Below, one piece after another: positions 4,274 through 32,020 of a DNA stretch of 32,534 nt. The first letter of the stretch is position 1. The number at the start of each line of letters is the position of its first letter. The notes beneath the pieces are model-generated. The model ran no database searches. It saw nothing but the letters and a program-made list of their open reading frames with translations, and had not been told where the DNA came from. Position numbers and translations under genes: made by a program. The DNA lies in assembly GCA_021299185.1 (NCBI GenBank), contig JAJTHZ010000163.1, forward strand, positions 1-32,534. The letters are read 5' to 3'. This stretch comes from Lysobacteraceae bacterium (GTDB lineage: Bacteria; Pseudomonadota; Gammaproteobacteria; Xanthomonadales; Ahniellaceae).

Positions 4274-4275
4274 GT

Positions 4276-7200
4276 TCATGACTCCGGATCCGATGCGGGG
4301 CGCGGCGAGACCACCCCGACGATGGGCGCCACGCCGGCGGGCGGTGGCGATGGCGGGCGCGGGCCGGGGGCGCCCACGTGCGTCGGTTCCGGACGCGGCG
4401 GCAGTGGCGGTAAGTCCGGTGCCGTCGCGACCGCGCCCTCGCTCGGCGCGCTGCCGCGCTTGGGCTCGGCCAGCGCGGGACGCACGGGCAGCGCTACGCC
4501 GCTGCAGGATTCGAAACCGTCGCCGAACACGCGCGGGGTGGCGCCGGACTCGAAGCCATCGGCGAACAGGCGACCCTGGAAGCAACTGCCGGTCAGGGCG
4601 ATCACGTGGTCGTCGAGCAACACCCAGTCCGGCACCTCGACGGTGCCGCGGTCGTGCTGCAGCAGCAGGCGCAACTCGTTCTGCGGCCACGCGTTGGTCG
4701 CGAAGTCGAACGAGCGCTGGATCGTCGCACCGGCGGCAAGGTCCGCACTGGTGCTCGCTGCGGCGACAGGCACGGCCCCATCGACGGACTGCACCAGCAC
4801 CCGGAAACGGGCGCCGTTCGCCGCCACCGTGCCGGTGTTGCGCAAGGTGGTTGGCACCGGCAACGGCTGGCCGGCTTCCCAGGTCTTGGCGACCAGGTCG
4901 ATGCTGCCGAGCAAGGTCGGGGCCGGCGCGCCGGTGCGGACGACGACGACGTTGGCGGGCGCGCCCTGGTTGCCGGCGCGGTCGCGCGCCGCCGCGCTGA
5001 TCGTGTTGCTGCCGAGGACCAGCGGCAGGTCCGGCACCGAGAACGCGCCGAGCTCATCGGCGGTGACGTCGCGCTGCGTGGCGCCGGCGATGACGCGCAC
5101 CGCGGCGCGCGGCTCGGTTTGCCCGGCGACGAGGATGGTGGCGAGCGGCGTCTGCGTGCCTGGCGCGGGCTGCGCGATCGTCACCACGGGCGGCGTGCGG
5201 TCGATGCGGAAGCGCGCCTCCGCCTCGGCGCTGTTGCCTGCCGCGTCGGTGGCGACCGCGCGCAGCACGTAGGCGCCGTCGGCCGTGATCGGCGTGCCCT
5301 GGGTGTACGCCTGGCCATCGAGCGTCAGCGCGAGGGTGGTCGCGGTGGCATCCTGTGCGGTCACGGTCGGCTGCACCGGGACGTTGACCGGCGGATCCTC
5401 CGGCGGGACGTTGCCGATCGTCACCTGCGGCGGCGTGCGGTCAATGGTCAACGCCCGCGGCGGCGCGACGCCGACCTGGTCGGCCGCGTCGATCGCACGC
5501 ACTTCGAGCGTGGCCGCACCTTCGATCGTGGTCGGCACGCTGCCGGAGAAGCGCGACGGCGTCGCGGGCAGCGGGTTGAGCGCAACCCAGGGGCCTCCGG
5601 ACAGCCGCGCTTCGACACGGGACACGGCGCTGAGCGCGACGACGGCGTCGGCCACGACCGCCACCTCGACGCCGTGCGCACTGCCCGCCGCAGGCGCCAC
5701 GAGGGTCACGGTGGGCGGCGTGCGATCGACGATCGCGAACGGCGCGCTGGCGATGCGGGTCCAGGCACGCGTTCCGTCGATCGCGGTGTACTCGGCCTCG
5801 AGCACGGCTTCATGCGCGCCCAGCGGGCGACCGGCCGTCGACAGCCCGGCGCTGCCGGGCATGCTTGCCGCAGGCGCCAGCGTGACCGACAGGTTCTGCA
5901 CCACCTCCGGCGTGGCGACGCCCACGCGCTGGAACGTCAGGCGCACCGGCAAGCCCGTGACGGCAGCGGACCCCGGGTTGCGCAGGGTCCATGCCGCCTG
6001 CGGTGTCGCACCGGGCTCACCCTCCGTCGGGGTGACGGCCAGCGTCGCTTCCAGCGTGGCCCCGGCATTCGGCACATGGCGCACGCTGCGGCCGGACTCG
6101 GTGCCGACGTTGCCCGCGACATCGGTGGCCTGGGCGACGATCAGGTTGTCGCCGAGGACCAAGGGCACGTCGACGGCCACGAACCGCCCCTCGGCATCGG
6201 CCGTGAGTTGCACGCTGTATGCCCCGCGTGCGACACGCACCGTGGCCCCGGCCTCGGTGCGCCCGGAGACCGTGACCCGGTCCACCGGCACGACGGCGCC
6301 CGCGGGCGGCGCGGTGAATTCGATCGACGGCGCCGTGCGGTCGAGCACGAACCGCAGCATGGCGCTGGCCGCATTGCCGGCGCGATCGGTGGCCGTCGCA
6401 TCGATCTGGTGCGCGCCCTCGCCGGTCACTGCAGTGCCGCTCGACCACGGCTGGCCATCGAGCGTGGCGACCAGCGTACCGGGGTTGGCGTCGATGACCG
6501 AAACCGTGGGCGTGACGCTTGCGGCGTTGCTCACCGCGCCGTCGGCGATGCCGCCGAAGGCAATCGAGGGCGCCGTGTCGTCGACCACGAACGACCGGGC
6601 GGACACCGTGGTCGCGTTGTCGGCGTCGTCGCGGGCCTCGACGTCGAGGCGGTGCGCCCCTTCGGCCAGCGGCAACAGTTCGCGCGTGAAGCGCGCGGCG
6701 TCGCCCGGATCCTGCAACAGGTCGATCCAGTCGCCCAGATCGATCCGCGCGCGGACCCGCGGCGGCACGCCACCCGGATCGGTCGCGCGGGCTTCGACCC
6801 GGACCCGGTTGCGGACCACGGCATCGGCCGCAGGCGACACCACCACCAGTGCCGGCGCCATGCCATCGACCACCTGCACGACGGCGGCATCGATCTGCTG
6901 CCAGTTGCCGCCAATCTGCGCATCGAGCGAGAGCGCGGCCTGGCCCAACGGCCATGCAGTGGTGGCCCACTGCACGGATTCATCGACGGTGCCGCCCGGC
7001 GGCAGGTCGCGCACGAACTCGCGCGCCTGCAGCAGGAGCGTCCCACCCGCGCCGAACGCCTGCAGCCGGAAGCGCTGCTGCGCGATCGCGGAGGCACCCG
7101 GATTGCGCACCTGCACGGCGATCGACAGATCGCTGCCACGATCGACCGCCGGTGGTGCCTGGATCGTGCCGACCAGTCCGCTGCCGCCGCCGTCGGTTCG

Positions 7201-10200
7201 GGTGACGGCGACGCTGCGCTCGGGGCTCGAATTGCCGGCCGGATCGGTGGCGCGCGCGCGCAGGAGATTGCCGCCCAGTTGCAGCGGCACGCCGGCGAAC
7301 AGCACTTGCCCGTCGCCGGCGGCGACCTGCTCGGCGGTGTAGGCGCCGACCTGCAGCACCACGCGTGCACCCGGCTCGCTCGACAGACGGGCATTGACGC
7401 TGGTGGACGCCGTGGCGCTGCCGTCGACCGGCGCCAGGAACTGCAGAGGCGGCGCCGTACGGTCGATCGTGAAACGCACGATGCGCTCGGTGCGGTTGCC
7501 CGCGCGGTCGATGGCGCGCGCCAGCAGCACGTGCGGGCCCTCGCCGTCCACGGGCGTGCCGGAGACATAGGGCTGGCCGTCGAGTCGCAGCAGGTCCGAC
7601 GACGGGTCGGGATTCGTGTCGGTGATGGTGATCGACGGCGTCACCGGATCCCGGCCCAATTGGCCGTCGACCACGCCGCTGATCGCGACCACCGGCGGCG
7701 TGCCGTCGACGACGAAGGTGCGCGTGGCGGTCTCGGCGCGGTTGCCATGCCGGTCGGTCGCGCGCAGGCGCCAGACGTGCGACCCATCGGCCAGCGGCGG
7801 CGCGCTCGCCGCGTAGCGACCATCGACCGATCCGAACAACGCGAACCATTCGCCACCGTCGACCTGCGCCTCGACCGCATCGACGCCGGCGTGGCGGTCG
7901 AGCACGCGCGCGCGCAGCACCCAGGGTGGTGCGACCGGGCGCGTGCCGTCGGGCTCGATGGCATCGATGACGGGCGGCTCGCCATCGGTGACCGGCAGGC
8001 TGCGCGCGGCCAGCAGTCGCCAGGTCCCGGCAGCATCGGTCGGCAAGCGCGCTTCCAGCACCGCGCGGTAGGCGCCGAGGGCGAGCGCGACCGCAGCGAG
8101 GTCCTCGGCGCGCTCGAGCGTCCCGGCCGGCGCGAGGTCGCCACCGGCGGTGCGCACCAGTGCATCGGCCCCGCCCTGGCCGATCACCCGCAGGCGCATC
8201 TCCACCTGCGACAGCGCAGCGGTTCCGCCGTTGCGGACGGACCAGCGCAGGACGGCATCGCGACCCAACTGTACGGCGGCGTCGGGCTCCAGGGCGAGAA
8301 GCCCCGACAACAGCGGCGGCGAGGCCGGGTCCAGGACCGTGAGCGAGCGCTCCGCGACGCGTTCGAACGCGCCGGCGCTGAGCCGCGCGGTGAGCTGCAG
8401 CACGCCAGGCGGCATGCCGGTGGTCGGCACGTCGAACGGCACCACGCCCTCGAATCCGGGGCGCAGGGTACCGAGCACGCGATCGACCGACAGCAAGGTG
8501 GTGCCGCCGGGTGCGATCGCCTGCAAGCGCAGCGTTGCGTCGCGCAGTTCCTGGTTGCCGGCGCGGAACACGATGCGACTGCGCGCCGGAACCACGCTCC
8601 CGCGGGCGACGGACGGCGTCGGCGCAACCCAGTCCAGATCGATCACGCGCCAGCCGTCGATCGCGAACGCTGCTTCGGTGGCTGCCACCGTCGTGCCGTC
8701 GCTGCCGCGCAGCAGCGCGCGCAGCCGGTAGGCGCCGCCCGGACGACCGGTGCTGGGCCACTCGATGGCGAACTCGCGGCGCTGCGCGAATCCGAGCGCG
8801 GGCACCGCGACCTGGAGCACATCGGCGATCGCCTCACCGCCGGCGTCGAGCACCTGCACGCGCAGGTCGCCGTCGAAGGGCGCGCCGGGGTTGGTGGCGG
8901 TGACCGTGCCGCGCAAAGCAACGCCCGGCGCGAGCAGGTCGCCGCGCAGGGCGACTTCCAGCAGTGGTGCACCGGCGGCCGAAACCGCGACACCGCGCTG
9001 CGCCGTGTTGTTGGACTCGTCGGACTCGACGATGGCGTTGCCGCCGTCGACCACGGCGCGCACCGTCCAGGTGCCCGCGGCATCGAGCGCGCCGAGCCCG
9101 AACTCGACGGTGCGCGATCCGCCGGCCTCGATGGCGCCGGTGGATCGCGGCGGCAAAGTGCGCTCGAGGCCGGCGGGGTTCGCGAGGCGCAGCACGACGG
9201 GTGCCGGCGGCGCTTCGACAGTGCCGCGATTTCGCACCGTCACCAGCGCGGTGAAGGCATCGCCGACCCGGCCTGCGGCGGGGGCGATCCGCAGGTCGTT
9301 GGCGCCGATCGCGAGGTCCGGCAGCGCGCCGGCGTCGACGGTGACCGTCACCGGGAGCGACGCCGTGCCCTGGTTGCCGGCTGCATCGCGCGCCATGGCC
9401 TGGATGCGCTGCGTGCCTGCAACGACCGGCAACGCGCGCACGCAGAACCCACCGGGCGCGTCGATCACGCGGACACCGTCGCGCATCACGACCAGGCGAT
9501 GGCCGCGGGTCCAGTCGACGATCGATCCGGCCGGCTCAGTCGACAGGATACTGCCGGTCGAAAGGTCCACGAGGTCGATCCGTTGCGCGCTCGGCAACGC
9601 CACCACACGACCCCGGGGGTCGACGGCGAAGTCGTCGACCCGTGCCGGGAACGTAAGGCGCGTGGTGCTCGCGCCGCTGCCGAGTTCGATCTCCGCCACG
9701 CTGCTGGTGGTGCCGTCATTGGCCAGCGCCAGCACGCGTGAGCCGTCCGCGGCCCAGTGGACGGCCCGCGTGCCCGAGCCGAGCGGCGTCTCCTGGCGCG
9801 TGCCATCCACCGCCAGCGCGACGACGATCGAGCGCACCGGGTCGCGGAACAGCACGCGGGCGCCGTCGGGCGACCAGTGGAAGCGCGCGCTGGAATCGAT
9901 CGCGCCGGCCGCCGCGAGCAGCGTCACTGCGGCGGACTGCGTATCGACAAGCCACGCGGCCTCCTCGGCGTCGCCGATGCGGCGGCCGACGACGAGCAGC
10001 CGGCGACCGTCCGGCGACGCTTCCAGTCGCGACACCAGGTCGAAGGCTTCGCTGAAGTCGGTGCTGTCCAGCGTGCGGGCATCGAGTCGTCGGATCCTTG
10101 CGCCGCTGTAGCCCACGTACCAGATCGCACGGGCGTCGGCGGAGACGCTTGCGAGCAGGGCCGTGGCGGTGCTGCGCGCAACCTCGGCACCGGTGTCGAG

Positions 10201-13200
10201 GTCGATGACCACGCTGCCGCGTGCGAACTCCGACACGAACAGCAGTCGCCCGTCAGGCGAGGCGGCCGCTTCGCCCGCGGTCTGCAGCCCGGCCGGCCAG
10301 GTGCGCGCCGACCATCCGGGCGCCGCCACGGCCTGTGCCTGTGCACCGCGATCGCTGGAAAGCGTCAGACGGGCGTCCGGTTCGGCACTGCCACACACAC
10401 CGACGGTCGTGGATCGAGTGAGATAAGTGGTGCCTGGCGGCAGCGGCAGGTCGAGTACCGGCGGCGCGGGCGGCGTCGAGTCCCGCGGGACGATGGCACG
10501 CACCTCGCTCGCCGCGCCCCGGTTGCCGGCCGCATCGCGCGGCGTGACCCGATAGTGGTAGGTCCGCCCGTCGACCAGGGGCGCATCGCGGAACGTCGTG
10601 GCGGCCTGCGTGGCGAGCGGCGCGAATGGCCCGGCGGCCGCATCGGCACGTTCGACGACGTAATCCGCGGTCGGGGTGCCTGCACCGGGCTGCCAGGCGA
10701 GCTGCACCGCGCGACCTTCCGGCAGCGCCTGGAGCGAAATCCATTGCGGCGCCCCGGGCAGCGCCGCGCTCACCGCCAATCGCACCGTGTTCGACGGCGC
10801 ACTCGCGTTGTCGAACGCATCGACCGCGACGACCGTGTAGTCGAAGGACCCGTTCGGGCGGGCGGCGTCGACGTAGCGTCGCTCGGCGCTGGCGGCGACG
10901 CGCGCGATATCGCGTCCGTCGCGACGCACCCAATAGGCGGCGACATCGGTCGACGCACTCGCCGTCCATTGCAGCACGACGTCGCTGCCGGCCACGCTGC
11001 CCGACAGCGCCACCGGCTGCGGTGGCTCGGCGTCGCCGACATCGACCGGCGCGGCCTGCGCGAGCGGACCTTCGAAGGCGAAGCGCTCGACGGCGCTGAC
11101 GGCGAACGCGTGACGCCCGTCCGGGACATCGACCACAAGCGGCGATGCCGCGGCCAGCGGTCGCCGCACGAGGTCGAGTTCGGCGATCGCGCCACCCACC
11201 AGCGGCGGCACTTCGCGCAGGATGAACCGAACGCGCTGCGTCCGATACACGATTTCGAACGGGACGAAGCGCTGGACCTCGTCATTGTCGGCGAAGGCGC
11301 CCACGCGCACCCAGCGGCGTCCCGACCAGGCTTCGATGTCCGCGGCCACGATGCGGCGGGACGATTCGCTGGCGAGCAGCCGCAGGCCGACGATGTTCGC
11401 TACGGCGGGCGCACGCAGTTCGATCACCGCGCCACCGTCGATGCGTCCGTCGTAGCCGGGGTCGATGTCGACCGCGGTCGCCGGATCGTCGTCGATGGCG
11501 CGCGACGGTGCGGTCACGCTGATCCCCGTCGCGGTAAGCAAGGGCGTGTCCTCGTCGCCGCGGACCGCCGTGCCGTTGCGATACACGCGGTAGCCGATGG
11601 CTTCGTCCGGTGGGCGCGGCGCCCAAGTGACGGTCGCCGTGCGCGCGGCCACCGAAACCGACACGGGCGCCGGGGCTTGCGGCAAGTTCGCGCGGTCGAC
11701 GATGGCCTCCGCCGCCACGCTGCGGTTGCCGTCAGCATCGGTGACGTGCACGACGAGACGGTTCTCCCCGGCAGCAAGGGGCACGCCGTCGAATGCGAAG
11801 CGGCCGTCGGCGCCCACGGGCTGCGGACCGACCGGCGGGGCGGCGCCGACGGACAGCGACGCAGTGCCCGCGGCGGGCGAACGCCCCTCGACGCGGATGC
11901 TCGGGGTCGCGACTGGGGTGAACGGATCGGCGAGCGACAGCGTGAAGATGCGCGCGGGCGACGCTGGCGGCGCCTCCGAGCGATTGCCCTCCGCATCGAC
12001 CGCGACCACGCTGCGGACGACGTCCCATTTACCCAACGCATCGTCCTCATGCGCCCGCGCGCTGGCGGGCAGTTCGGCGATCAGCGGTCCGGTTGCGCCG
12101 GGACCGCGATGGACGCGGTAGCTCGCAACGTCGGCGGACGGCGACCCCTGCCAGGTGGTGCGGATGCGCAGGCCGTCCGCGCGGGCGCGCACGTCGGACG
12201 GCGGATCGGGCGGCGTGAGGTCGGCGAAACGCACGGCAAGCACGGGCGGCGTCGGATCCACGCGGCCACCGACGTCGCGCGCCAGCGCGCGGACTTCGTA
12301 CTCGCCGAACGCCAGCCCCTGCGGCGCCCACTCGACCACCCACGGCGCTGCGTTGAGTGGGGCGCCAATGGTCGTCCACGCACCACCCGGCGGACGCCAG
12401 GCGAAGACCACCTCGGCCACGTCGACATCCGGCGACTGCACGCGCAGACGGATCGCGCGGTCGAAGCGCTGGCCGGGCAGCGGCTCGACCCACGACACGC
12501 GCGGCGCGGTGGTGTCGAGTTCGACCACCGCCTCCGCGGACGGTTCGCTGAGATTGCCGGCGCGATCGATGGCGCGCACGCGGTACCGCCGCGTGCCGTC
12601 GCCCACGCCTTCGTCCAGCCACTGGTCGGCGGCGATCGCGAAGGGGCGCAGGTCCGGTGGCGGCGCATCGCCGGCAGTGAGCAGCACGCCGTCGCGGTAG
12701 ACCAGATAGCCCAGCAGGTCCGACTCCGTGTTCGGCGACCAATCGAGGCTGATGTCGCGTCCATTGGCGCTGGCGACCAGTCCGACCGGCGGCGCCGGCG
12801 GGCCGTTGTCCACCGTGACGCGCGCTTCGACGCTGGCCCGGTTGCCGGATCGGTCGGCGGCCTCCAGCAGCAGACGATGGACGGACAGGTCCGGCAGGCT
12901 GCGCGTATCCCAGGTGGCCAGCGTGCCGTCCTCGCGTTCCTGCGTACCCTCCGCGAGCAGGACCGCAGCGCCACCCCCGTCCGGCGTGACCTGCAGCCGC
13001 CAGCCCGCGAGGTCGCCGGTTGCCACGATGCGGCCGTTGATCGCCAGCAATCCGGCGACCTGTGCGCCGTCCTGCGGATCGACCAGCGCGATGGCGGGCG
13101 GCGTGCGATCGAGGACCACGTCCACCGGCGCGGAGCGCGCGCTCTCATTGCCGGCGCGATCGACCGCGGCGACGGCATAGCGCTGTCGTCCCTCGGGCGC

Positions 13201-16200
13201 GAGGGCATCGAGCAGGCTGCTCTGCGTCGGCAGCCCCGGCAAGGCCACGCCGTTGCGGTATACGCGGTAGCCGGCAAGGTCATCGGCCACCACGTCGGAC
13301 CAGTCGAGTGCCACATCGCGATTGGCGACCGGCGTGGCGACCAGCCCGGTCGGCGCGGGCGGCGGTTGCGTATCGATGCGCAGCGGCACGCTGGCGGACG
13401 ACGTCCAGCCCGCGCGGTCTTCGACCGTCAGGCGCAGCACGTAGTCGCCTTCCGGTCGGGTCAGCGTGGCTTCGAAAAGACGACCGCCGACGACCGCTGC
13501 CTCGCCGTCGAACAAATCGGAGAACTGGCCCGCACCGGCACCCGCGGCAGGCGCGAGCGCGATCCGGTAGCTGGCGAAGTGGGGGTCGTCCGCCGTGCCC
13601 TCGACACGCAGGCGATCGCGCACCGCAGCACCCGAGGCGGGGGCGGTGATCGACGCCACCGGCGGCGTGCCGTCGATGACGACGGCGCGCTCGATCGTGG
13701 TGCGGTTGCCCGCGCGGTCGACGGCGGTCAGCACGAGGCGCGCCGGACCATCTGGCTGCTGCACCAACCATCCATGGATCGCGCCACCGGCTGGCACGGC
13801 CGCCGTGCCGCCGGCCAGCGCGACGGCAGCCGCACCCGCGCGCTCGAGCCGCAGGTCCCAGCGCTCGAGGTTCGTGTCGGTGATCGAGCCGCTCACGGCC
13901 ACGTTGCCGCCGCGTCGCAATACTGCTTCGTCGGCCGGCGTTGCGAAGGCGAGGTCCGGCGCGGTGCGATCGACGACGAAGCGGTGGTCGATCTGGCCGA
14001 CGTTGCCGGCGCGGTCGCTCGCGGTGCCGACCAGCCGATGCGCGACCTCGGCCAGGGCATCGGCGTCGGCCAGCACGACATCGCGCGCCGCCGTGCCGGT
14101 GTCGCGGGCGAGCTCGGTGCCGCTGTCGTCGCGTCGCAGTGCGACCTGGTAGTTTTCCAGTCGCGGTTCGACGATCGACACGCCCACGCCCCGGCCGCCA
14201 GGCACGAAGGCTCGTGCGTCCGGCAGCGGCAGCAGGCGCGGCGGCGCCGTGTCGACATCGACCGCGAACGCGTGGGCTTCGGTCGATGCAGGCTGCGCGG
14301 CGTCGACCAATTGCAGCTCGATCCGATACGCGCCGTCGGCGACCGGCTGGGCACCCGCCCCGCGCCCGTCCCAGGCCCACGAGGCGGCGCCGGCTGCCAC
14401 TGCGACATCATCGGCGAGCACGCGGACCGGCGCGTTCGCATCGTCGAGCACGCGGACCGTCGCGCGGACGGCACGCGACAACACGACGTCGAGCCGAGTG
14501 GCGTCGCGCACGCCGTCGTTGTTGGGCGAGAACGCTGAAGGCAGCAACGTCGCGCTCGCCAGCAGCCGCGAGGGCGCATTGAGCACGATGGGGACGTCGA
14601 CGCGGGTGATGTTGTCGAGCGCATCCTCGGCGACCAGGGCGATGGTCGCCGCACCGGACAGGCTGCCGCGCGACCACGAGCCGAGACGCCCAGCGGGCAC
14701 GACCGCGGTCGTGCCGTCGGCGACCGGGGCCAGCACGGACCCTGCACCTGTCGACCCCGCGAGCACCTGCCAGCGCGCGAGGCGCGGGTCGTCGACGGTG
14801 CCGCGCACGTCGATCGCGATCCCGCCAACGGTGGCGCCGCTCGTGGGTTGGGAGATGCCCGCTGTCGGCGGCGTGCGATCCACGCGCAGGCGGTACTCGA
14901 AGGTCTTCTCGAAGCCACATTCGTCGCGCATGATCAGCCGCAATCCGTGCAGGCCTTCAGCGAGCGGCTGTCCACCCAACACGCCATCCCAGGCGATCTC
15001 GAGCGCCGGCGGCTGCGCGAAGCCTTCCTGCACCGTCGCGAGCGGCGCATCGACCAGCATCGATGCCAGGTTGCCGGGTTCCGCGAGCGCGTGCAGCGTG
15101 AGGCGGAAGTCGACCCGCTCGCCGACGCGATACGGCAGCCGGATGCGCTGGAACCTCCCGCGTCCGGACAGTCCCAGCACTGGACCTGTCGACGTGACCG
15201 AAAGCACCGGCCCCGGTCCGTTGCCCGGCTGCTCTTCGGCGTCGAGCAGGGAGTCGATCCGCACGGTCCGCCTCGCGCAGACCTGCGCGCCGGACCAGTC
15301 CCACGCGCGCACGCGCAAGGTCGCGGCACCATCGATCCGGAACGCGCCGCTGGGCCGCCGGCCTTCGACGGCCACCGAGCCCAGCGGGCCGTTCTTGGGG
15401 CCAGTGGCCTCGACGGACTCCTCCCACGCCAGCGGCGCCGCGCCCTCGCCGACGCCCAGCCGATAGAACACGACACCTGGGTTGCCACCATCGACCGCAC
15501 CCACCAGCGGCACAGTCAGCGGCTGGAGGGGTTGCGGGCGGACCGCGCAGATGCGGGCGCCCGCCAGCGGCTCGAAGATCTGCGCCTGTCCGATCACCCG
15601 GTCGACGTCGAATGGCACCGCGTCGAGCATCTCCAGCCCGCGCCCGCGCCCGCGTTCGACGCGGACGATGGCTTCGGCGGCGCCGACTGGCAGGGCGCGG
15701 GTATCGAGATCCAGCGTGAGCGGCAATCGTCGGAACCACCCGATGGACACGGCGGGCGCGTAGGCGCGATCGAGCAGCAGCGCCTCGATGCCGGTCGCGG
15801 GATCGCGTGCGTGCACCACGATGCGCGCGATCGCGGTCGATGACCCTTCGCTCGCGGTGCCGACCTTGAGGCGCACGGCATCGCTCGGCAGCGCCGCGCA
15901 TTCGGCGCCAGGTACGGGCTCGACGCCCGCGACGAGTTCCGCGCCCCCAGGTGGCACGGTGACGACGCATTTCGTGACCCTGGCAGCCGCCGCCCGCGCC
16001 TCGTCGAAGCGGGTGCGCAGGCGCACGATGGCAATCGTTGGGCGCTGCGCCGCCTCGCCCGCCTCGATCTCGGCCAGCGCGGCGGCCGATAGCAGGACCA
16101 GCGCGCCACCGGATTCTTGCGCGAGCACCTGCGCGCCATCGAGAACCGCGCCCACCGTGATGCGCTCGATCGCCCTGAGGCCATCGGGCAACACGAGGTC

Positions 16201-19200
16201 GTGGGCGACGAAGCGCATGGCCGCCGTGGTGTCGCCCGAAGCGAGGCCTGCGGACCTGAGCAGGGATTCGCGCACCGCAGCGGGCAGACGTGCGGCATTC
16301 GAGGAGGTGTCATCCGGGCAGAGCAAGCCGACCGCGAGTGAATCGGGCTCGAAACGGATCGGTTCCGATGCTACGCGCGTGCCGTCAACGCGACGCCCGA
16401 CGACGCGCGCGAGGAACGGGCGTGCGGCGGCCAACGCCTCGGGATCGCCGACGACCCGCAGGTATTGCCAGTGCTGCGGTGGCGATTCCAGCAAGCAATC
16501 GGCTGGCGATACGCCAATCTCTCCGCAGGTGGCCGCACCACCACCATCGAGGGTCGCTGTTGCGCGTACTTGCCATTGCGGCGCGACATCGACGGCCGCC
16601 GTCTGGTATTCGAGCTCGACGAGATTGGGTACCGTCGCGGAGACTTCGAGGCGGTCAAGGTCCGGCGGCTGCGCCAGGAAGTAGCGGCTCGGACGCAGGC
16701 GCGCCGGATCGGTCGGTGCCACGTAGAAGCCGTAGCGCTGGAGCAGCGGACGTCGCTCTCCGGGCCGCGCACGCGACAGGCCGATCCGCTCCGTGATGTT
16801 GATTTCCTCGCGCGCGGCGCCCAGCTGGAACAGCGAACGATTGCCGGCGAGGTCGCTGGCCCGCAAACGGAAGGTCCGGTTCGCGTAGTCCTCGATCGCA
16901 ATCTCGACGACCGCGGTGCCCGGCGTCAGCTCGCGCAGCGTCTGCCAGTCGGCGCCCTGGCGGAACTCGAGCGCCAGCCCGGCGAGGTTCGCATCGGCGA
17001 CCGCCGCACGGCCCGGTGGCGCGAGCTGCACGGCTGCGTGGCGACCGGCCGATGCCTCGGACGGCGCCCGAATTCGCGGCTCGCCGACCGGGGCGCGCGT
17101 GTCGACCACGATCGGAAGCCGCTGCTCGTTGATCCACAGCGTGTAACGCCCGTCGGGCACCGTGTCGCCGGCATCGGAGCGGCCGTCCCACGCCCAGGTG
17201 GCCGGGCCCGTCTCCGCGGCACCGAAAGCGCGCACATACGTGCGCAGCGGCTGGCCGCCGGCATCGCGGATCTCCACCCGAATGGTCGCCGCGCGGCGCA
17301 CTTCGAAGTCGACGCGCATCACATCCTGCACGCCGTCTCCGTTGGGCGAAATCGCACGCGGCGCGGCGACCACGCGCCCGACATCGGCGCCGAATGCGGA
17401 CACGACCTGGACCACCGACGTGCGCGAGTTGCCCGCGCGATCGAAGGTGCGCAGGCGCACCTGGTAGGTGCCCGGCTCGGGCGGCGTCCAGTAGTGGAAA
17501 TCATCCGCCAGCACCTCGGTCGGCGACGGTTCAGTGATCGATTGCCACTGGGTCGGCGTGGCGGCGTGCGCCCATTCCAGTTCCCAGCGATCGAACTGGC
17601 GGTCGGCGGCGAGGCCGAACAGCCGCATCGTGCGCCCGAGGTTTTCCACCCGCAGCACGGTCGGCAGGTTGAGGAAGGAGCCGAGCACACGCCCGCCGGA
17701 GGGTCCGTTCGCGGGATCGCTTCCGGGTGACAGCAGCAGTGCATCGTCCAAGGGCGCCGCGGCCAGCACCTGCTGCGCAAGGTCCCAGCGCTCGCGGAGG
17801 CGCTGCCCGCCCGCCGACCACAGGCTGCCGTCGCAGCCAACCCGACTGCCGTCGGCGAACATCCAGGCGGGTGCCATCCCTTCGCCTTCGCCGGCGATGC
17901 CGGCGAACAGGTCGACGTCGAGCCACGAGATTCCGGCCTCGTCCACCGCAGGAATCCATTCGCCGATCTCGGAATCCTTGCGCCGAACCGCGAGGTTCCG
18001 CGCGACTCCGAGCGACAGGCGCTCGCTCGCCGCATCGAACCATTGGTGGACCGGATGTTCCGCGAGCCAGGACGGCGAGCCATTGCAGCCCTCCACGGTC
18101 TGGAAGGTCGACCGCCCACGATGGACGCCGTTGGCCGAGCCGACCGGGATCGAGCCAGGATCGGGCACACCGAGCGGTTCGTGCCGCACCGGCAGCGGCA
18201 CCTCGCCGAGGCTCTCGCCCGCGCTGGAGAAGAACAGCGCGCGCGGCGCGGCGGCATCGACCACCAGCAGTTCGCCTGCGCGCGCGATCCACGACATCGT
18301 GAGCTGGTCGGGGAACCGGAGGTCATCCGCGGCGAACTCGAACGGCGTGCGCTCGACCGCCGCCAGACGCCGCGGCGCGGTGCCGTCGAGCGCGGCCAGC
18401 CACACCGACTGGGTCGGTCCGTTCTCGCGGATGCCGGCGATCGCCCGGCGGTCCGGCGACAGCACCGCACCCCGCCAGGTGCCGAGTTCGCGCGGCGTCG
18501 ATCCGTCGCGTGGCGCGAACAGCCACCGCTCGCCGTCGGCATCGGGCATGCGCAACACCACGCCTTGCCCGAACACCGCATGCACGGCGGCCGCTAGCGG
18601 GACGTCGTTCGCGAACGGCGTGGTGACGCCGCTGCGGATATCGAGCAGGCGTCGTTCCACGCCTGTAGGCGTGGGCCATCGGACCAGGGCGGTGCTGGCG
18701 TCGATGAATCCTTCGACGTACGGCACGCCGCCCTGCGGAAACACCTGCGGCGCGCCGAGCAGGGTCGGATTGTCGACCGCATCGGCGCGCGTCACGGCAA
18801 ACACGTGGCGATACGGCCCGAACGCGACCTCCGTTCGCAACAGCACGAGTACGCGCTGTCCGTCGGGCACGAACCAGAAGGCGCGCGCCTCACCCGCGTA
18901 TTCGCCACGGCTGGCCGTGTAGCGCTGCACCCATTCCTGCGAAAGAACCGGTTGCAGCGCCGGAAACAGGGTGTCGGACCGATAGAGTCCGACGTAGCGC
19001 GGCGGCGAGATGCCCGGCGGCGGCCGTGCCCCGAGCGCGAACACGGCGAAGCGGCTGGCCGCGCCGTCCGGCGCGAAGCGCCAGCCGCCGACGTCCGGTG
19101 GGATGGCCGGCGGCAACGCGACGAGGCGCGATCGCGGCGTGTCGATCGCCTCCACCACGGTGCTGCGATTGGTGTCGACGGTCGCATCGACGGCGCCGAT

Positions 19201-22200
19201 GCGGCGCTCGCTCGCGCCACGCACGTCGATCGCATAGTCGCCGTCGGGTACCACGCGGCCGCGGTCGTTGCGGCCGTCCCAGGTGGCCTCGCCGCGGGCC
19301 AGCGTGACCGTCGCGAATCGCCGCACGGTTTGGCCGGCGGCGTTGCGCACCTCGATGCGCACCGGCTCGGCCGCCGCGAGCCGCCACGCCACGCGCAGGT
19401 CGTCCTTGATGCCGTCGCCATTCGGCGAGAACCAGCGCTGGCTGGCGAACACGTTACCGTCCTGCAGGCTCAAGGGGACGTCGAGCCGATTGTTGTCTTC
19501 GCGGGTTTCTGCCACTGCGGCCACCGCATCGACCTCGATGCGAAGGGCGCGCGGCGCGGGATCGAGGCCGAACCGCCAGGTCCAGGTCAACTCGGTGCTG
19601 GCGCCCGCCGGCAAGCCGTCGACGCTCCGGGGTGGGGCGACCAGGACCGAACCGGCGCCGATTTCCTCCAGGCGGACGGTGAAGGACGCGGCGTCCTGCT
19701 GGCCGAGGTTGCGAACGCGTATGCGGGCGGTCGCGTCCTCGCCGGGGACCGGCCGGCTGGGGTCGAGCTCGACGTCGGCGAGCGCGACCGCGAGATCGGC
19801 GAGCGCCAGCACCGGCGCCGTGCGAAGCGCGAGATTGTTGCTTTCGTCGGCCTCGGCGACTGCGGCGCCGGCATCGGCCTGGACGTAGAACGTGGTGTCG
19901 CCCCGCAGGTCGAGCGCGGAGACCGCCATCTCCACGTCCTGGCTGCCGCCAGCCGGCAGCGCGGGCACGCCGGTGCGCGCCAGTTCGCGGCCCGCGAGCC
20001 TTGGATCGCCGGCGAAAAGCGCCGCAATGGTCGCCGGCGCGGCATCGACGCCGAGGTTGCGAATGCGCGTGCGCGCCACCAGCGGCCGGGCTTCGCGTGG
20101 CGTCGCTGGATCGAGGTCGAGGCGGGCGTCGTCGATCGCAAGGTCGATGCCACTCGCGGCGGCAACCGTGAGATCCAGCGACCCCCGGTTGTTGGTCTCA
20201 TCGAGCTCGGCGATCGCGCCGGCCGGATCGACCTCGGCTTCGATCGTCACCGCGCCGCTGGCGCGCGGAGTCCAAGGGAACTCGCGGGTCTCGCGGCCGC
20301 CGGCAGCGACCTGCAGCACCTGCACCGGCAGCACGACGCGCTCCCCGGACACGATCACCGTGACGCGCAGGGCGGCTGGCGGCGCGTCGCTGGCGCCTCG
20401 GTTCTCGACTGCGACCCGGATGGGTGCGATGCGGCCGGCGACCGGGGGGCCCGCGAGCGCGACGGACAGGCCCGCGGCGGGCACGACCAGGTCGACGCCC
20501 TGGCCTGCGGGGACATCGCGCAGCAACGTATTGTCGGATTCATCCGCTTCGGCGAACTCACGCGCGGCGTCGGCTTCCACCCGCAGGCGGAATCCAGAGG
20601 CCACGTCGCGCACGAACCGCAGCTCGAAGGGTGCGTTGCCGCTGGCTGACACGTCGACGCGCGCCTCGGCGAGCATCACCGGTGGCACGGAATCCAGCGA
20701 GGCGCGCAGCAGCACGCCGTTGGCCGCGGCGCGACCGAGGTTTCGCAGCACGCCAGTCACCACCAGCTCCACCGGTGCGCGTTCGATGCGCGGCGGGGTC
20801 ACCACCAACTCGCTGGCGGCTAGCGCCAGCTCGACGCCGGGCGGGGCCGGTGCCACCACCAGCGGCGAGCTCGTCACGTTGTCGGTTTCGCTGGACTCCG
20901 CGATGGTGCCGGCGGCGTCGACCTGCGCGTGGATGTTGCGGGTCCCGGTGCGTCCGCGCGTGTCGAGCAGCACGACGGCGATGCTGCGGGCGCCGACCTC
21001 GAGCGCCGGCACTGCGACCGGGCCCCCGATCGGCTGGCCACCGGCGTCCGGGACGCCGTCGAAGAACCGCACGACGCTCGCCGGCGCGGCGCCACCGCCA
21101 CGGTTCTCGACCACCGCGACGACCCGCACGATCGCGCCCTCCACCGGCTGCGCCGGGTCGAACTGCAGGGCGCCGGCCACCGCGAGGTTGGGCGCGCCAT
21201 CGCGGGTCAAGGCCAGTAGTGCGAGGCTGGTGGCGTACACGCTGCCGCCGAAGTCCCCGCCGGTGCCCTGCCGATTGCGCAGCCAACCCCGCAAGCGCTC
21301 ATAGGGTGTGCTGGGAAGACGGATCGCCGGCTGACGGGCAAACACCTCCAGCGACTCGGTGAGCGAGGTTCCGAAGCCGCCGTCCGCAGACTGGCGCGAC
21401 ACCAGCCAGGTGCGTGCGCGGTCGCGGATCCCCGAAGCGCGAGGCCCGGTGGGGTCGACCATGGCGAGGTTCGCAATCGAGAGCGCCGTGCCGCGCAGGC
21501 TGCCCACGCCGCCCGGGTGCAGGCCGAACGCGCCATCAGCGGCCTGCCAGGCTTCACTGCGCTCGACGTACCACGCCCAGGACTGCGGATTCGGATTCTC
21601 GCGACCGAGCAGGTCGACGCCGATCTGGGTGTCGAGCACGCCCGGCTCGAGGCCGCGCGCCAGCCGGAAGCCGCCGGCATTCCCGAGTGCTTGCACGGCC
21701 TGCAGCGAGAGCGCCCGATCCGCCGGCAGCCCGGCCGCGCGCCAGGCGTATTCCTCCAGCGTGGCCACGGGCGCGGCGGCGAGGAATGTCCGCGCGCGCG
21801 CGATCGCCGGATCGCCGGGCGCCAGTTCCGCGAGCGCCATCACCGCGTAGGCGGTATCGCGCAGCACCGTCGCCGGGTCGTCCTCGAAACGACCGTCGGG
21901 CCGCTGGCGGGCGCGCAGCCAGTCGAGGCCCGCTGCCAGCACGAACTCGCCATCGCGCAGCGCGCTCGGCTGCACGACCTGCGGCAGCCCCGGTGCAAGG
22001 CCACTGCGCGGCAGACTGCCGAAGCGCAGCGTACCGCGACCGCCGGTCATCGCGGTGAAGCGCTGCTGGAAACTCACTCGCACCCGCTCCAACTGCGCCA
22101 GCAGGCGTGGCGGCAATGCCTCGCCCGGGCGCTTGAGCAGCACCAGTCCCGCACGGAACGACTTCTGCGCGTCGGCCGCCGAAGGCAGGCGCACGCCCTC

Positions 22201-23064
22201 GGCCGCGATCACCTGTTCGATGCTGACGCTCTCGCCGCTCGCGGCGACTTCGGCGCCGAGGGTCGGCAGGTCGCCGGGCACGCCGGGTGCACCGCGCAGG
22301 AGGACGGTGGGCGGGACCTCGGAAGCGGCGAGGAATCCGCCGAGGTAGAGATCGAACGGCGAGTACTGGTGGCGGACGCGCACGCTGCGGAAGCGTCCGC
22401 CGGGCAGCGCCTGCCAGTCGTTGCCGTACATCACCGAGCCATCGCTGTCGACGAACCAGCTCCAGTGGCTGCCTTCACGGCCGATCAGGTCGGTGCTGTC
22501 GGAGCCGCCCGGCGTGCGGAAGCGCACGCCGACCGCCCAGCGGTGCATCAACTCGTGGGCGATCGTGTTGAGCAGCTCCGGGTGGCGCGGGTCCGCGGGA
22601 TCGAGCGCGTAGCGCGTGACCGCCGCCATGTCGACGATGCCCTGCAGGCGACTCGGGCTGCCGTAGGCCGCGCCGTTGTCGAACACCGGCTTGCCGATGC
22701 CACGCACTTCGTTGCGCAGCGGGTTGTAGAACGCCTGCGCGTCGCCGCTGTCGAACTCGAAGGTCGTGAACACGACGATGAAGTCGTACTCGTCCGCGCG
22801 CCCCTGCAGGAAGGCGCGTGCCAGTTCCTGCCGCGGCAGCGCGCTGCCGCGCGCGTAGCTGCCCTCAAGGTCGATCACCGTGAGGTTGCCGAGATCGGAC
22901 ATGCCGACCACCGCCTTCGGCGCGCCGGCCTTCGGCACTTCCGGCTGCAGGCGCCACTCGAGGCACGTCGAGGCTTGAGGCGGCACGAACCCAAGCGGTC
23001 CTGCCGCCACCGCCGGGGCAGCCAGGGACAGCAGTGCGAGCAGGCCGAACGCGCCGCGTCTCAC
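4276..23064 (-). CDS. Giant exported mosaic protein (6,262 aa) with HExxH, CARDB, FlgD-like, propeller, FN3 and Ig-like modules
   Basis: The start is GTG at 23064, overlapping the upstream stop as GTGA, with GGAG 9 nt upstream. Residues 1-20 form a signal peptide ending APAVAA. A zinc-peptidase-like segment carries HELMH at 170-174, followed by GSHWSWFVDSDGSVMYGND; no clear third ligand is seen, so protease activity is only possible. Residues ~370-615 hold prenyltransferase/squalene-cyclase-like repeats (WLRARQRPDGRF, WLVSRQSADGGFG). Five CARDB modules follow (~630-1200), each ending like DESNN. FlgD-like Ig modules carry SPNGDG or SPNNDG at ~1213, 1906 and 2846. A propeller-like segment spans ~1290-1830 and a TolB/WD40-like one ~4250-4530. 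FN3 modules (GYRVYRNG) occupy ~3230-4200, with a discoidin-like insertion near 3850-3980. A further CARDB module is near 4560, then mixed Ig/CARDB domains, a threefold super-repeat (5027-6150), DGFES at 6169 and 6182, and a Pro-rich tail. The role is probably adhesive or structural, but this is unproven. Confidence 0.9.
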   Translation of the reverse strand: MRRGAFGLLALLSLAAPAVAAGPLGFVPPQASTCLEWRLQPEVPKAGAPKAVVGMSDLGNLTVIDLEGSYARGSALPRQELARAFLQGRADEYDFIVVFTTFEFDSGDAQAFYNPLRNEVRGIGKPVFDNGAAYGSPSRLQGIVDMAAVTRYALDPADPRHPELLNTIAHELMHRWAVGVRFRTPGGSDSTDLIGREGSHWSWFVDSDGSVMYGNDWQALPGGRFRSVRVRHQYSPFDLYLGGFLAASEVPPTVLLRGAPGVPGDLPTLGAEVAASGESVSIEQVIAAEGVRLPSAADAQKSFRAGLVLLKRPGEALPPRLLAQLERVRVSFQQRFTAMTGGRGTLRFGSLPRSGLAPGLPQVVQPSALRDGEFVLAAGLDWLRARQRPDGRFEDDPATVLRDTAYAVMALAELAPGDPAIARARTFLAAAPVATLEEYAWRAAGLPADRALSLQAVQALGNAGGFRLARGLEPGVLDTQIGVDLLGRENPNPQSWAWYVERSEAWQAADGAFGLHPGGVGSLRGTALSIANLAMVDPTGPRASGIRDRARTWLVSRQSADGGFGTSLTESLEVFARQPAIRLPSTPYERLRGWLRNRQGTGGDFGGSVYATSLALLALTRDGAPNLAVAGALQFDPAQPVEGAIVRVVAVVENRGGGAAPASVVRFFDGVPDAGGQPIGGPVAVPALEVGARSIAVVLLDTRGRTGTRNIHAQVDAAGTIAESSETDNVTSSPLVVAPAPPGVELALAASELVVTPPRIERAPVELVVTGVLRNLGRAAANGVLLRASLDSVPPVMLAEARVDVSASGNAPFELRFVRDVASGFRLRVEADAAREFAEADESDNTLLRDVPAGQGVDLVVPAAGLSVALAGPPVAGRIAPIRVAVENRGASDAPPAALRVTVIVSGERVVLPVQVLQVAAGGRETREFPWTPRASGAVTIEAEVDPAGAIAELDETNNRGSLDLTVAAASGIDLAIDDARLDLDPATPREARPLVARTRIRNLGVDAAPATIAALFAGDPRLAGRELARTGVPALPAGGSQDVEMAVSALDLRGDTTFYVQADAGAAVAEADESNNLALRTAPVLALADLAVALADVELDPSRPVPGEDATARIRVRNLGQQDAASFTVRLEEIGAGSVLVAPPRSVDGLPAGASTELTWTWRFGLDPAPRALRIEVDAVAAVAETREDNNRLDVPLSLQDGNVFASQRWFSPNGDGIKDDLRVAWRLAAAEPVRIEVRNAAGQTVRRFATVTLARGEATWDGRNDRGRVVPDGDYAIDVRGASERRIGAVDATVDTNRSTVVEAIDTPRSRLVALPPAIPPDVGGWRFAPDGAASRFAVFALGARPPPGISPPRYVGLYRSDTLFPALQPVLSQEWVQRYTASRGEYAGEARAFWFVPDGQRVLVLLRTEVAFGPYRHVFAVTRADAVDNPTLLGAPQVFPQGGVPYVEGFIDASTALVRWPTPTGVERRLLDIRSGVTTPFANDVPLAAAVHAVFGQGVVLRMPDADGERWLFAPRDGSTPRELGTWRGAVLSPDRRAIAGIRENGPTQSVWLAALDGTAPRRLAAVERTPFEFAADDLRFPDQLTMSWIARAGELLVVDAAAPRALFFSSAGESLGEVPLPVRHEPLGVPDPGSIPVGSANGVHRGRSTFQTVEGCNGSPSWLAEHPVHQWFDAASERLSLGVARNLAVRRKDSEIGEWIPAVDEAGISWLDVDLFAGIAGEGEGMAPAWMFADGSRVGCDGSLWSAGGQRLRERWDLAQQVLAAAPLDDALLLSPGSDPANGPSGGRVLGSFLNLPTVLRVENLGRTMRLFGLAADRQFDRWELEWAHAATPTQWQSITEPSPTEVLADDFHYWTPPEPGTYQVRLRTFDRAGNSRTSVVQVVSAFGADVGRVVAAPRAISPNGDGVQDVMRVDFEVRRAATIRVEIRDAGGQPLRTYVRAFGAAETGPATWAWDGRSDAGDTVPDGRYTLWINEQRLPIVVDTRAPVGEPRIRAPSEASAGRHAAVQLAPPGRAAVADANLAGLALEFRQGADWQTLRELTPGTAVVEIAIEDYANRTFRLRASDLAGNRSLFQLGAAREEINITERIGLSRARPGERRPLLQRYGFYVAPTDPARLRPSRYFLAQPPDLDRLEVSATVPNLVELEYQTAAVDVAPQWQVRATATLDGGGAATCGEIGVSPADCLLESPPQHWQYLRVVGDPEALAAARPFLARVVGRRVDGTRVASEPIRFEPDSLAVGLLCPDDTSSNAARLPAAVRESLLRSAGLASGDTTAAMRFVAHDLVLPDGLRAIERITVGAVLDGAQVLAQESGGALVLLSAAALAEIEAGEAAQRPTIAIVRLRTRFDEARAAAARVTKCVVTVPPGGAELVAGVEPVPGAECAALPSDAVRLKVGTASEGSSTAIARIVVHARDPATGIEALLLDRAYAPAVSIGWFRRLPLTLDLDTRALPVGAAEAIVRVERGRGRGLEMLDAVPFDVDRVIGQAQIFEPLAGARICAVRPQPLQPLTVPLVGAVDGGNPGVVFYRLGVGEGAAPLAWEESVEATGPKNGPLGSVAVEGRRPSGAFRIDGAATLRVRAWDWSGAQVCARRTVRIDSLLDAEEQPGNGPGPVLSVTSTGPVLGLSGRGRFQRIRLPYRVGERVDFRLTLHALAEPGNLASMLVDAPLATVQEGFAQPPALEIAWDGVLGGQPLAEGLHGLRLIMRDECGFEKTFEYRLRVDRTPPTAGISQPTSGATVGGIAIDVRGTVDDPRLARWQVLAGSTGAGSVLAPVADGTTAVVPAGRLGSWSRGSLSGAATIALVAEDALDNITRVDVPIVLNAPSRLLASATLLPSAFSPNNDGVRDATRLDVVLSRAVRATVRVLDDANAPVRVLADDVAVAAGAASWAWDGRGAGAQPVADGAYRIELQLVDAAQPASTEAHAFAVDVDTAPPRLLPLPDARAFVPGGRGVGVSIVEPRLENYQVALRRDDSGTELARDTGTAARDVVLADADALAEVAHRLVGTASDRAGNVGQIDHRFVVDRTAPDLAFATPADEAVLRRGGNVAVSGSITDTNLERWDLRLERAGAAAVALAGGTAAVPAGGAIHGWLVQQPDGPARLVLTAVDRAGNRTTIERAVVIDGTPPVASITAPASGAAVRDRLRVEGTADDPHFASYRIALAPAAGAGAGQFSDLFDGEAAVVGGRLFEATLTRPEGDYVLRLTVEDRAGWTSSASVPLRIDTQPPPAPTGLVATPVANRDVALDWSDVVADDLAGYRVYRNGVALPGLPTQSSLLDALAPEGRQRYAVAAVDRAGNESARSAPVDVVLDRTPPAIALVDPQDGAQVAGLLAINGRIVATGDLAGWRLQVTPDGGGAAVLLAEGTQEREDGTLATWDTRSLPDLSVHRLLLEAADRSGNRASVEARVTVDNGPPAPPVGLVASANGRDISLDWSPNTESDLLGYLVYRDGVLLTAGDAPPPDLRPFAIAADQWLDEGVGDGTRRYRVRAIDRAGNLSEPSAEAVVELDTTAPRVSWVEPLPGQRFDRAIRLRVQSPDVDVAEVVFAWRPPGGAWTTIGAPLNAAPWVVEWAPQGLAFGEYEVRALARDVGGRVDPTPPVLAVRFADLTPPDPPSDVRARADGLRIRTTWQGSPSADVASYRVHRGPGATGPLIAELPASARAHEDDALGKWDVVRSVVAVDAEGNRSEAPPASPARIFTLSLADPFTPVATPSIRVEGRSPAAGTASLSVGAAPPVGPQPVGADGRFAFDGVPLAAGENRLVVHVTDADGNRSVAAEAIVDRANLPQAPAPVSVSVAARTATVTWAPRPPDEAIGYRVYRNGTAVRGDEDTPLLTATGISVTAPSRAIDDDPATAVDIDPGYDGRIDGGAVIELRAPAVANIVGLRLLASESSRRIVAADIEAWSGRRWVRVGAFADNDEVQRFVPFEIVYRTQRVRFILREVPPLVGGAIAELDLVRRPLAAASPLVVDVPDGRHAFAVSAVERFAFEGPLAQAAPVDVGDAEPPQPVALSGSVAGSDVVLQWTASASTDVAAYWVRRDGRDIARVAASAERRYVDAARPNGSFDYTVVAVDAFDNASAPSNTVRLAVSAALPGAPQWISLQALPEGRAVQLAWQPGAGTPTADYVVERADAAAGPFAPLATQAATTFRDAPLVDGRTYHYRVTPRDAAGNRGAASEVRAIVPRDSTPPAPPVLDLPLPPGTTYLTRSTTVGVCGSAEPDARLTLSSDRGAQAQAVAAPGWSARTWPAGLQTAGEAAASPDGRLLFVSEFARGSVVIDLDTGAEVARSTATALLASVSADARAIWYVGYSGARIRRLDARTLDSTDFSEAFDLVSRLEASPDGRRLLVVGRRIGDAEEAAWLVDTQSAAVTLLAAAGAIDSSARFHWSPDGARVLFRDPVRSIVVALAVDGTRQETPLGSGTRAVHWAADGSRVLALANDGTTSSVAEIELGSGASTTRLTFPARVDDFAVDPRGRVVALPSAQRIDLVDLSTGSILSTEPAGSIVDWTRGHRLVVMRDGVRVIDAPGGFCVRALPVVAGTQRIQAMARDAAGNQGTASLPVTVTVDAGALPDLAIGANDLRIAPAAGRVGDAFTALVTVRNRGTVEAPPAPVVLRLANPAGLERTLPPRSTGAIEAGGSRTVEFGLGALDAAGTWTVRAVVDGGNAIVESDESNNTAQRGVAVSAAGAPLLEVALRGDLLAPGVALRGTVTATNPGAPFDGDLRVQVLDAGGEAIADVLQVAVPALGFAQRREFAIEWPSTGRPGGAYRLRALLRGSDGTTVAATEAAFAIDGWRVIDLDWVAPTPSVARGSVVPARSRIVFRAGNQELRDATLRLQAIAPGGTTLLSVDRVLGTLRPGFEGVVPFDVPTTGMPPGVLQLTARLSAGAFERVAERSLTVLDPASPPLLSGLLALEPDAAVQLGRDAVLRWSVRNGGTAALSQVEMRLRVIGQGGADALVRTAGGDLAPAGTLERAEDLAAVALALGAYRAVLEARLPTDAAGTWRLLAARSLPVTDGEPPVIDAIEPDGTRPVAPPWVLRARVLDRHAGVDAVEAQVDGGEWFALFGSVDGRYAASAPPLADGSHVWRLRATDRHGNRAETATRTFVVDGTPPVVAISGVVDGQLGRDPVTPSITITDTNPDPSSDLLRLDGQPYVSGTPVDGEGPHVLLARAIDRAGNRTERIVRFTIDRTAPPLQFLAPVDGSATASTSVNARLSSEPGARVVLQVGAYTAEQVAAGDGQVLFAGVPLQLGGNLLRARATDPAGNSSPERSVAVTRTDGGGSGLVGTIQAPPAVDRGSDLSIAVQVRNPGASAIAQQRFRLQAFGAGGTLLLQAREFVRDLPPGGTVDESVQWATTAWPLGQAALSLDAQIGGNWQQIDAAVVQVVDGMAPALVVVSPAADAVVRNRVRVEARATDPGGVPPRVRARIDLGDWIDLLQDPGDAARFTRELLPLAEGAHRLDVEARDDADNATTVSARSFVVDDTAPSIAFGGIADGAVSNAASVTPTVSVIDANPGTLVATLDGQPWSSGTAVTGEGAHQIDATATDRAGNAASAMLRFVLDRTAPSIEFTAPPAGAVVPVDRVTVSGRTEAGATVRVARGAYSVQLTADAEGRFVAVDVPLVLGDNLIVAQATDVAGNVGTESGRSVRHVPNAGATLEATLAVTPTEGEPGATPQAAWTLRNPGSAAVTGLPVRLTFQRVGVATPEVVQNLSVTLAPAASMPGSAGLSTAGRPLGAHEAVLEAEYTAIDGTRAWTRIASAPFAIVDRTPPTVTLVAPAAGSAHGVEVAVVADAVVALSAVSRVEARLSGGPWVALNPLPATPSRFSGSVPTTIEGAATLEVRAIDAADQVGVAPPRALTIDRTPPQVTIGNVPPEDPPVNVPVQPTVTAQDATATTLALTLDGQAYTQGTPITADGAYVLRAVATDAAGNSAEAEARFRIDRTPPVVTIAQPAPGTQTPLATILVAGQTEPRAAVRVIAGATQRDVTADELGAFSVPDLPLVLGSNTISAAARDRAGNQGAPANVVVVRTGAPAPTLLGSIDLVAKTWEAGQPLPVPTTLRNTGTVAANGARFRVLVQSVDGAVPVAAASTSADLAAGATIQRSFDFATNAWPQNELRLLLQHDRGTVEVPDWVLLDDHVIALTGSCFQGRLFADGFESGATPRVFGDGFESCSGVALPVRPALAEPKRGSAPSEGAVATAPDLPPLPPRPEPTHVGAPGPRPPSPPPAGVAPIVGVVSPRPASDPES
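4510..4564 (-). other. Tandem DGFES C-terminal motif (putative sorting or processing tag)
   Basis: Near the C-terminus of the giant protein, the motif occurs twice, 13 residues apart: LFADGFESG with D at 6169 and VFGDGFESC with D at 6182. A Pro/Ala-rich tail of about 75 residues follows. From memory, short F-x-D/N-GF-E/D motifs are common near the C-termini of secreted proteins in Lysobacterales. A sorting function is inferred, not shown. The second copy carries a Cys directly after FES, and the upstream SCFQG adds another Cys, so a disulfide across the motif is conceivable. Confidence 0.45.
4597..7986 (-). repeat. Three tandem ~375-codon super-repeats in the giant gene
   Basis: Units begin at residues 5027 (DGEPPVIDAI), 5400 (DGMAPALVVV) and 5780 (DRTPPTVTLV). 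They are spaced 1,119 and 1,140 bp apart and all lie in the same codon phase. Each has the same order: an Ig-like domain, a second Ig-like domain with LDGQ(P/A)(Y/W)..GT and a DRAGN- or DAAGN-type ending, a third with a (L/V)LG.N motif near its end followed by D.AGN, and a CARDB-like spacer. The copies have clearly diverged at protein level, so this is an old duplication rather than a recent expansion. Confidence 0.7.
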
Positions 23065-32005: not shown

Positions 32006-32020
32006 CGTTTCCCCTGTTTT

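Follow-up and report, generated by a model that had tools for sequence, protein, structure and literature searches.

The locus

The window analysed here is a stretch of 32,534 nucleotides, which represents one entire contig (C58) of a genome of 4.84 Mb in 270 contigs with a G+C content of about 72%. Three adjoining genes on its minus strand, in the following named C, A and B in 5' to 3' order, are the subject of this study. Gene A, which encodes an exported giant mosaic protein, is a single frame from a GTG start at position 23064 to a TGA stop at position 4276 and comprises 6,262 aa. The coordinates and the length of this 18.8-kb frame were correctly given in the initial annotation, and neither an internal stop nor an N occurs within it in the window sequence. 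The G+C content by codon position is even along the whole of gene A, which is the pattern expected of one coding frame. In the same order 12 genomes, the own one among them, contain N-terminal homologues with frames open for 5,700-6,500 aa, and the frame length is therefore far above chance.

The genes on both sides overlap gene A. The TGA stop of gene C (positions 23061 to 23567, minus strand) and the GTG start of gene A share 4 bp (GTGA), and the start of gene B (positions 2 to 4279, minus strand) overlaps the stop of gene A likewise by 4 bp (ATGA). Gene C encodes 168 aa as called, and its true start may be further in. The contig ends within gene B, before its Rhs region would begin. In homologous loci the same operon-like arrangement was found, and the three genes form a conserved operon C-A-B, which has the giant A in its middle and occurs in at least five phyla.

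Upstream of these genes the window contains a 101-bp tandem repeat (positions 28564-28949, 3.8 copies, 91% alike). A transposase-like fragment (ENFRDTKS..., positions 31849-32534, minus strand) runs to the contig end, and 7-bp CCCTGGG repeats adjoin it.

Domain architecture of the giant protein

The modules of A were scanned with Pfam and NCBIfam profiles, and two regions were in addition modelled and compared to known folds. The protein begins with a Sec signal peptide (approximately residues 1-21, MRRGAFGLLALLSLAAPAVAA, positions 23002-23064), which had been claimed before and is recognized by eye as well as by the hydrophobic leader in the aligned relatives. A zincin-like HExxH domain follows (residues 40-350 approximately, positions 22015-22947).

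Residues 371-627 (approximate limits; positions 21184-21954) form an alpha/alpha toroid of the squalene-hopene-cyclase fold. The model of residues 21-700, calculated from 41 sequences, has a mean pLDDT of 89, and its toroid matches class II terpene cyclases with a Z score of 23.2 (rmsd 3.1, 250 aligned residues), the best match being drimenyl diphosphate synthase. By sequence profile the same region matches squalene-hopene cyclase with an E value of 2.5e-31. The squalene-cyclase-like repeats of the initial annotation are thus real as a fold. An active-type squalene-hopene cyclase was nevertheless rejected, since despite the class II cyclase fold the DxDD motif is missing in the window copy and in 10 of 11 relatives. 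A protein of the thioester or alpha-2-macroglobulin type was rejected as well, for the CxEQ motif is absent from all 12 members. In comparison to squalene-hopene cyclases and to the TED of complement and alpha-2-macroglobulin the toroid of A has the same fold, but it is placed between a peptidase and Ig-type domains, and only one of the 12 members retains DxDD and none the thioester motif.

Behind the toroid lies a CARDB array of four stretches (about residues 625-1190, positions 19495-21192; PF07705, 1.5e-51). Three FlgD-type Ig domains could be identified by Pfam together with their motifs, namely at residues 1205-1290 (positions 19195-19452, PF13860, SPNGDG at 1213), 1898-1985 (positions 17110-17373, SPNGDG at 1906) and 2838-2920 (positions 14305-14553, SPNNDG at 2846), all limits being approximate. 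Matches to CHU_C are internal and fall in the same place as FlgD_ig. Between the first two of these domains a large beta-propeller is found (around residues 1302-1798, positions 17671-19161), for which the model of residues 1200-1900, from 44 sequences and with a pLDDT of 82, gave a best Z score of 14.7 (rmsd 5.6, 360 aligned residues). The third FlgD-type domain is located within an array of Ig-like (Big_7, Big_3, Big_13) and fn3 domains, which Pfam and NCBIfam place at about residues 2728-4200 (positions 10465-14883). A second beta-propeller is probable at about residues 4219-4540 (positions 9445-10410), to judge from SPDG-type repeats only. Residues 4582-4689 are a further CARDB domain (positions 8998-9321; PF07705, 4.4e-12), and tandem Ig repeats of the Big_13/OmpL47 type occupy approximately residues 5070-6045 (positions 4930-7857; PF19077, 2.9e-32; NF047446, 4.3e-39). 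The FlgD-like, CARDB, FN3 and Ig modules noted initially are therefore all present. From the two propellers that had been claimed, the first is supported by its model and the second by its repeat pattern alone, while a supposed discoidin-like insertion at about residues 3830-3960 matched no discoidin or other family in Pfam and NCBIfam.

The protein ends with two F-x-D-G-F-E motifs (residues 6165-6187 approximately, positions 4504-4572). No sorting-signal model matched the C-terminal tails of the A proteins above its cut-off, and in three of them a hydrophobic IPTL-like tail replaces F-x-D-G-F-E. In the DNA of the source genome the motif was found 48 times, compared to two matches for the reversed pattern, and 20 of 29 sampled copies end six residues or less from a stop. 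It has the look of a C-terminal tail, not yet described, on exported proteins of the Lysobacterales.

The HExxH head

The residues H170, E171, H174, H200, W201 and D238-L239-Y240 are invariant in all 41 aligned members, which come from several phyla. H200 is likely to be the third metal ligand. The head was proposed earlier to carry HExxH and to be possibly catalytic; its motif residues are indeed intact throughout, and catalysis is predicted from them. None of the Pfam and NCBIfam families claims this domain, and sub-threshold matches to Reprolysin, M1 and M48 were seen in single members. A sequence search of the PDB with the peptidase domain returned only a 24-residue HExxH match to an aminopeptidase with an E value of about 1, and a search of the viral fold library returned no match. 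In the PDB fold search with the N-terminal model the toroid occupies the entire match list.

The same domain was also observed at the C-terminus of other large exported proteins, in Nitrospirota and relatives of Geobacter at loci L064, L069 and L093, and further at L079 and L090. These proteins contain beta-helix, Laminin_G_3, PKD and fn3 modules.

Distribution of the A family

Among 101 genomes, i.e. the source genome and 100 related ones, 15 encode the head of A, and in 12 of these the frame is open for the 5,700-6,500 aa mentioned above. The 12 homologues align colinearly from end to end with identities of 22-47%. A wider search with two peptide patterns over 84,980 species genomes revealed 103 loci, 80 of which were kept. 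The family thus comprises at least 103 loci in the Lysobacterales, Acidobacteriota, Myxococcota, Thermodesulfobacteriota and Nitrospirota. Carriers include Tahibacter, Dokdonella, Wenzhouxiangella, Marinicella, Andreprevotia, relatives of Geobacter, Hyalangium and Sulfidibacter, and many are metagenome-assembled genomes (MAGs) of Acidobacteriota, Myxococcota, Thermodesulfobacteriota and Nitrospirota. The 39 complete frames range from 5,481 to 7,089 aa with a median of 6,090 aa.

The description of A as a mosaic protein and a long surface or secreted filament of unusual domain order stands as far as the mosaic and the long fibre are concerned. It does not stand for a solitary protein of unusual order, as A belongs to a conserved family with a fixed order and with operon neighbours. 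Repeat content and export are shared with the large modular adhesins, which consist of Big, CARDB and fn3 arrays; A differs from them by the fixed order over 6,000 residues, the peptidase head, the Rhs partner and the adaptor gene.

In the tree of the A proteins the window copy groups with full support beside Tahibacter and Dokdonella (Rhodanobacteraceae), and several phyla are intermixed. The betaproteobacterium Andreprevotia is sister to a MAG of the Desulfovibrionaceae, and a MAG of the Myxococcota groups with one of the Thermoanaerobaculia (L043, L044, L055, L067). This scattering of phyla suggests that A genes were transferred between phyla. One weak match, in Granulicella, was found for A-family DNA on plasmids.

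Gene C encodes a GspC-HR-like protein

The C proteins were gathered by position from many loci and aligned, and HMMs were trained on one phylum group at a time. An HMM from 16 members outside the Lysobacterales was run on the 4,998 ORFs at 57 loci and gave 36 matches. Each of these lies immediately upstream of A, and 20 had been held out from training. The reciprocal training gave the same picture (29 of 29 matches directly upstream of A). In total C was detected at 37 of the 57 loci and was not detected by these models at the other 20, among them notably those of Marinicella and myxobacteria. It abuts A also where B lies upstream or is divergent.

C is a small Sec-exported protein with a GspC-HR/PilP-like domain. 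T2SSC was matched by 9 of 24 members (best E value 9.7e-5), and the window copy alone has no Pfam match. GspC and PilP chains are the top matches in the PDB. An alignment of the C profile with a profile of true GspC from these genomes (hhalign) reached 93.7% with an E value of 1.9e-7, compared to at most 0.3% for 30 column-shuffled controls. These profile comparisons show that C is related to the HR domain of GspC. The likeness to GspC and PilP is confined to this domain. With about 80-220 aa, against open frames of 283-393 aa for the true GspC in the same genomes, C is too short to include the C-terminal part; it has an apparently cleavable signal peptide and is located outside the gsp operon. 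The source genome has its true GspC on another contig (C15), adjacent to a GspD. For GspC it is known that the HR domain binds to N0 of the secretin GspD (PMC3169554).

Gene B encodes a predicted Rhs toxin

The locus was read in 12 genomes of the order, the own included, and each of them has B directly 3' of A. Complete copies have about 3,500 aa, and five of the 12, with that of the window among them, are cut by contig ends. Thirty further genomes contain 33 A loci, at which B lies directly downstream in 19 cases, upstream on the same strand in three and divergent in one. Several of the remaining loci are cut by contig ends. A and B are clearly unlinked in two myxobacterial genomes, and probably also for the second A copy of one more genome (G121). 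B-like proteins were found in the absence of A as well.

The B proteins of the relatives consist of a signal peptide, a transglutaminase fold, Big_1 or DUF6531, 11-19 stretches of RHS repeats and a variable C-terminus. RHS_repeat was matched with 2e-113 and 1.5e-93 in two of them. In the window the transglutaminase-like domain (PF01841) is encoded at positions 3206-3583 on the minus strand and reads AGNHVDQA at the place of the expected catalytic Cys. This Cys, whose position was taken from the general transglutaminase consensus and not from a structure, is exchanged for Asp or His (GND/GNH) in all 12 copies including that of the window, and B can be described as an exported inactive-transglutaminase protein. 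The transglutaminase profile of B matched no chain of the PDB. The C-termini of the relatives carry Ntox15, Tle1-like, methyltransferase and other domains. Immunity-like genes are located 3' of B in the relatives, and SUKH adjoins two of the B genes.

Owing to the same architecture we assign B to the class of inactive-transglutaminase polymorphic toxins of Zhang et al. 2012, of which it is a predicted member. Signal peptide, dead transglutaminase domain, occasional Ig domains and, as seen in the relatives, Rhs repeats and a variable toxin with an immunity gene are common to B and the toxins described in that paper (PMC3482391), for which its authors suggest surface anchoring. The section on these toxins names neither a giant nor a GspC-like partner, whereas both are present here. 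Bacterial teneurin-like proteins (TLPs; PMC13018210) are likewise Sec-exported Rhs/YD shells with a variable toxin and an immunity gene. B differs by DUF6531 and the dead transglutaminase domain. TLPs are defined by an FN-plug/NHL superfold, and the likeness was judged on export, shell, toxin and immunity gene. In the sections consulted of that paper no mention of a 6,000-residue partner was found.

In Tahibacter soli two complete A-B pairs are located about 53 kb apart on one contig (G101:C18). In Dokdonella sp. BIN16 (L165-L166, G104:C16) the frame which holds B is open for 6,843 aa, twice the usual length, and has a non-Rhs end. Orphan Rhs-toxin cassettes are found behind the toxin gene at four loci (L150, L160, L161 and L162), an arrangement also known from classical Rhs loci.

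Secretion route

C, A and B each have a Sec signal. A GspD-type secretin was matched in all 33 A carriers tested, in 30 of them over the cut-off. Nearly every genome of the order has a T2SS (39 of 41 lie over the cut-off), and its occurrence in the carriers is therefore permissive evidence only and does not discriminate. It is gene C alone which leads us to prefer type II secretion, with C as adaptor. On the other side, a Rhs shell and a fibre of 6,000 residues would exceed the usual size of what a type II secretin exports, which counts against this route.

Two other systems were considered and rejected or given less weight. TssB is absent from the source genome (G000) and from 23 of the 33 carriers, which speaks against B as a Rhs effector of T6SS. 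A as a cargo of T9SS was rejected as the source genome encodes no protein matching Por_Secre_tail (PF18962) and the CHU_C matches of A are internal and overlap FlgD_ig.

A possible surface-displayed toxin system

With confidence only slightly better than even, we propose that C-A-B is a translationally coupled operon for a surface-displayed polymorphic toxin system, in which A, exported via Sec and then type II secretion, would be the surface scaffold and the processing peptidase of B. The order and the overlaps of the genes, their conservation across phyla, the folds, the intact HExxH, the lost Cys of B, the toxin and immunity ends of B in relatives and the relation of C to GspC are observed, and the route, the display on the surface, the contact between A and B and the target of the peptidase are what we infer. 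C would act in the periplasm as a free GspC-HR-like domain; it would attach to N0 of the type II secretin GspD and guide A and/or B over the outer membrane. On the cell surface, A would then extend as a long fibre of Ig, CARDB and propeller domains. Its N-terminal toroid and its propellers may bind partners including B, perhaps via the dead transglutaminase domain of the latter. The HExxH peptidase might cleave B, a target protein or both, by which it would release the toxin from the Rhs shell on contact with a competitor or clear its way. The 20 loci at which C was not detected, the two myxobacterial genomes with A and B unlinked and the B-like proteins that occur in the absence of A count against this reading.

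The composition of A, with its CARDB, fn3, Big and OmpL47 repeats, is that of large adhesins, and A could therefore be an independent surface adhesin or filament with a protease head, which serves in biofilms or in binding of substrate or prey. B would then be a separate, co-regulated weapon and C would export A only. The myxobacterial A genes without adjacent B fit to this explanation, and so does the position of C, which stays with A even where B is upstream or divergent. The adjacency of B in most loci across phyla and the 4-bp coupling in the window speak against it, as co-regulation alone rarely holds two giant genes together across such divergence, and we regard an independent adhesin as rather unlikely. 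That A is itself the attacker appears less probable still. It would be a secreted metalloprotease on a long tether, degrading proteins on the surface of prey or host, and B would serve the same predatory programme as another effector. The intact HExxH in 41 of 41 members, the occurrence of this same domain at the end of other large proteins of the surface, which contain beta-helix, Laminin_G_3 and fn3 modules (L064, L069, L093), and the origin of some carriers from predatory groups such as Hyalangium are in line with such a role, but a nearly constant architecture of 6,000 residues and a toxin partner exceed the needs of a tethered protease.

The pairing of a giant protein with a Rhs shell whose toxin C-terminus varies also recalls the Tc/ABC toxins, where A would correspond to a translocating needle on which the B shell docks, so that the toxin is injected through A. 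We consider this highly improbable: at the thresholds used neither A nor B matched a domain of the TcA, TcB or TcC families, the matches and models of A point to a string of Ig-like domains and propellers and not to an alpha-helical channel, and both proteins have Sec signals.

Polymorphic toxins of the B type are already known. A search of the open-access literature met no description of the giant partner, of the adaptor gene or of the arrangement of the three genes as the C-A-B operon. How Sec-exported Rhs and teneurin-like toxins reach their targets and release the toxin is described as unsolved (PMC13018210). Under the surface-displayed toxin system which we favour, A may be the partner, so far missing, by which Rhs toxins are displayed or delivered. 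More tentatively, and with somewhat less than even confidence, C-A-B could represent a distinct, T6SS-independent delivery or display of Rhs toxins. A free adaptor of the GspC-HR kind would recruit the type II secretin, and the cargo would be a toxin together with a 6,000-residue fibre dedicated to it, which brings along its own releasing metallopeptidase. The head of A supplies an unclassified HExxH family, and a conserved operon which joins a Rhs toxin, an adaptor resembling secretin-docking domains and a family of very long fibres makes the question of delivery directly testable.
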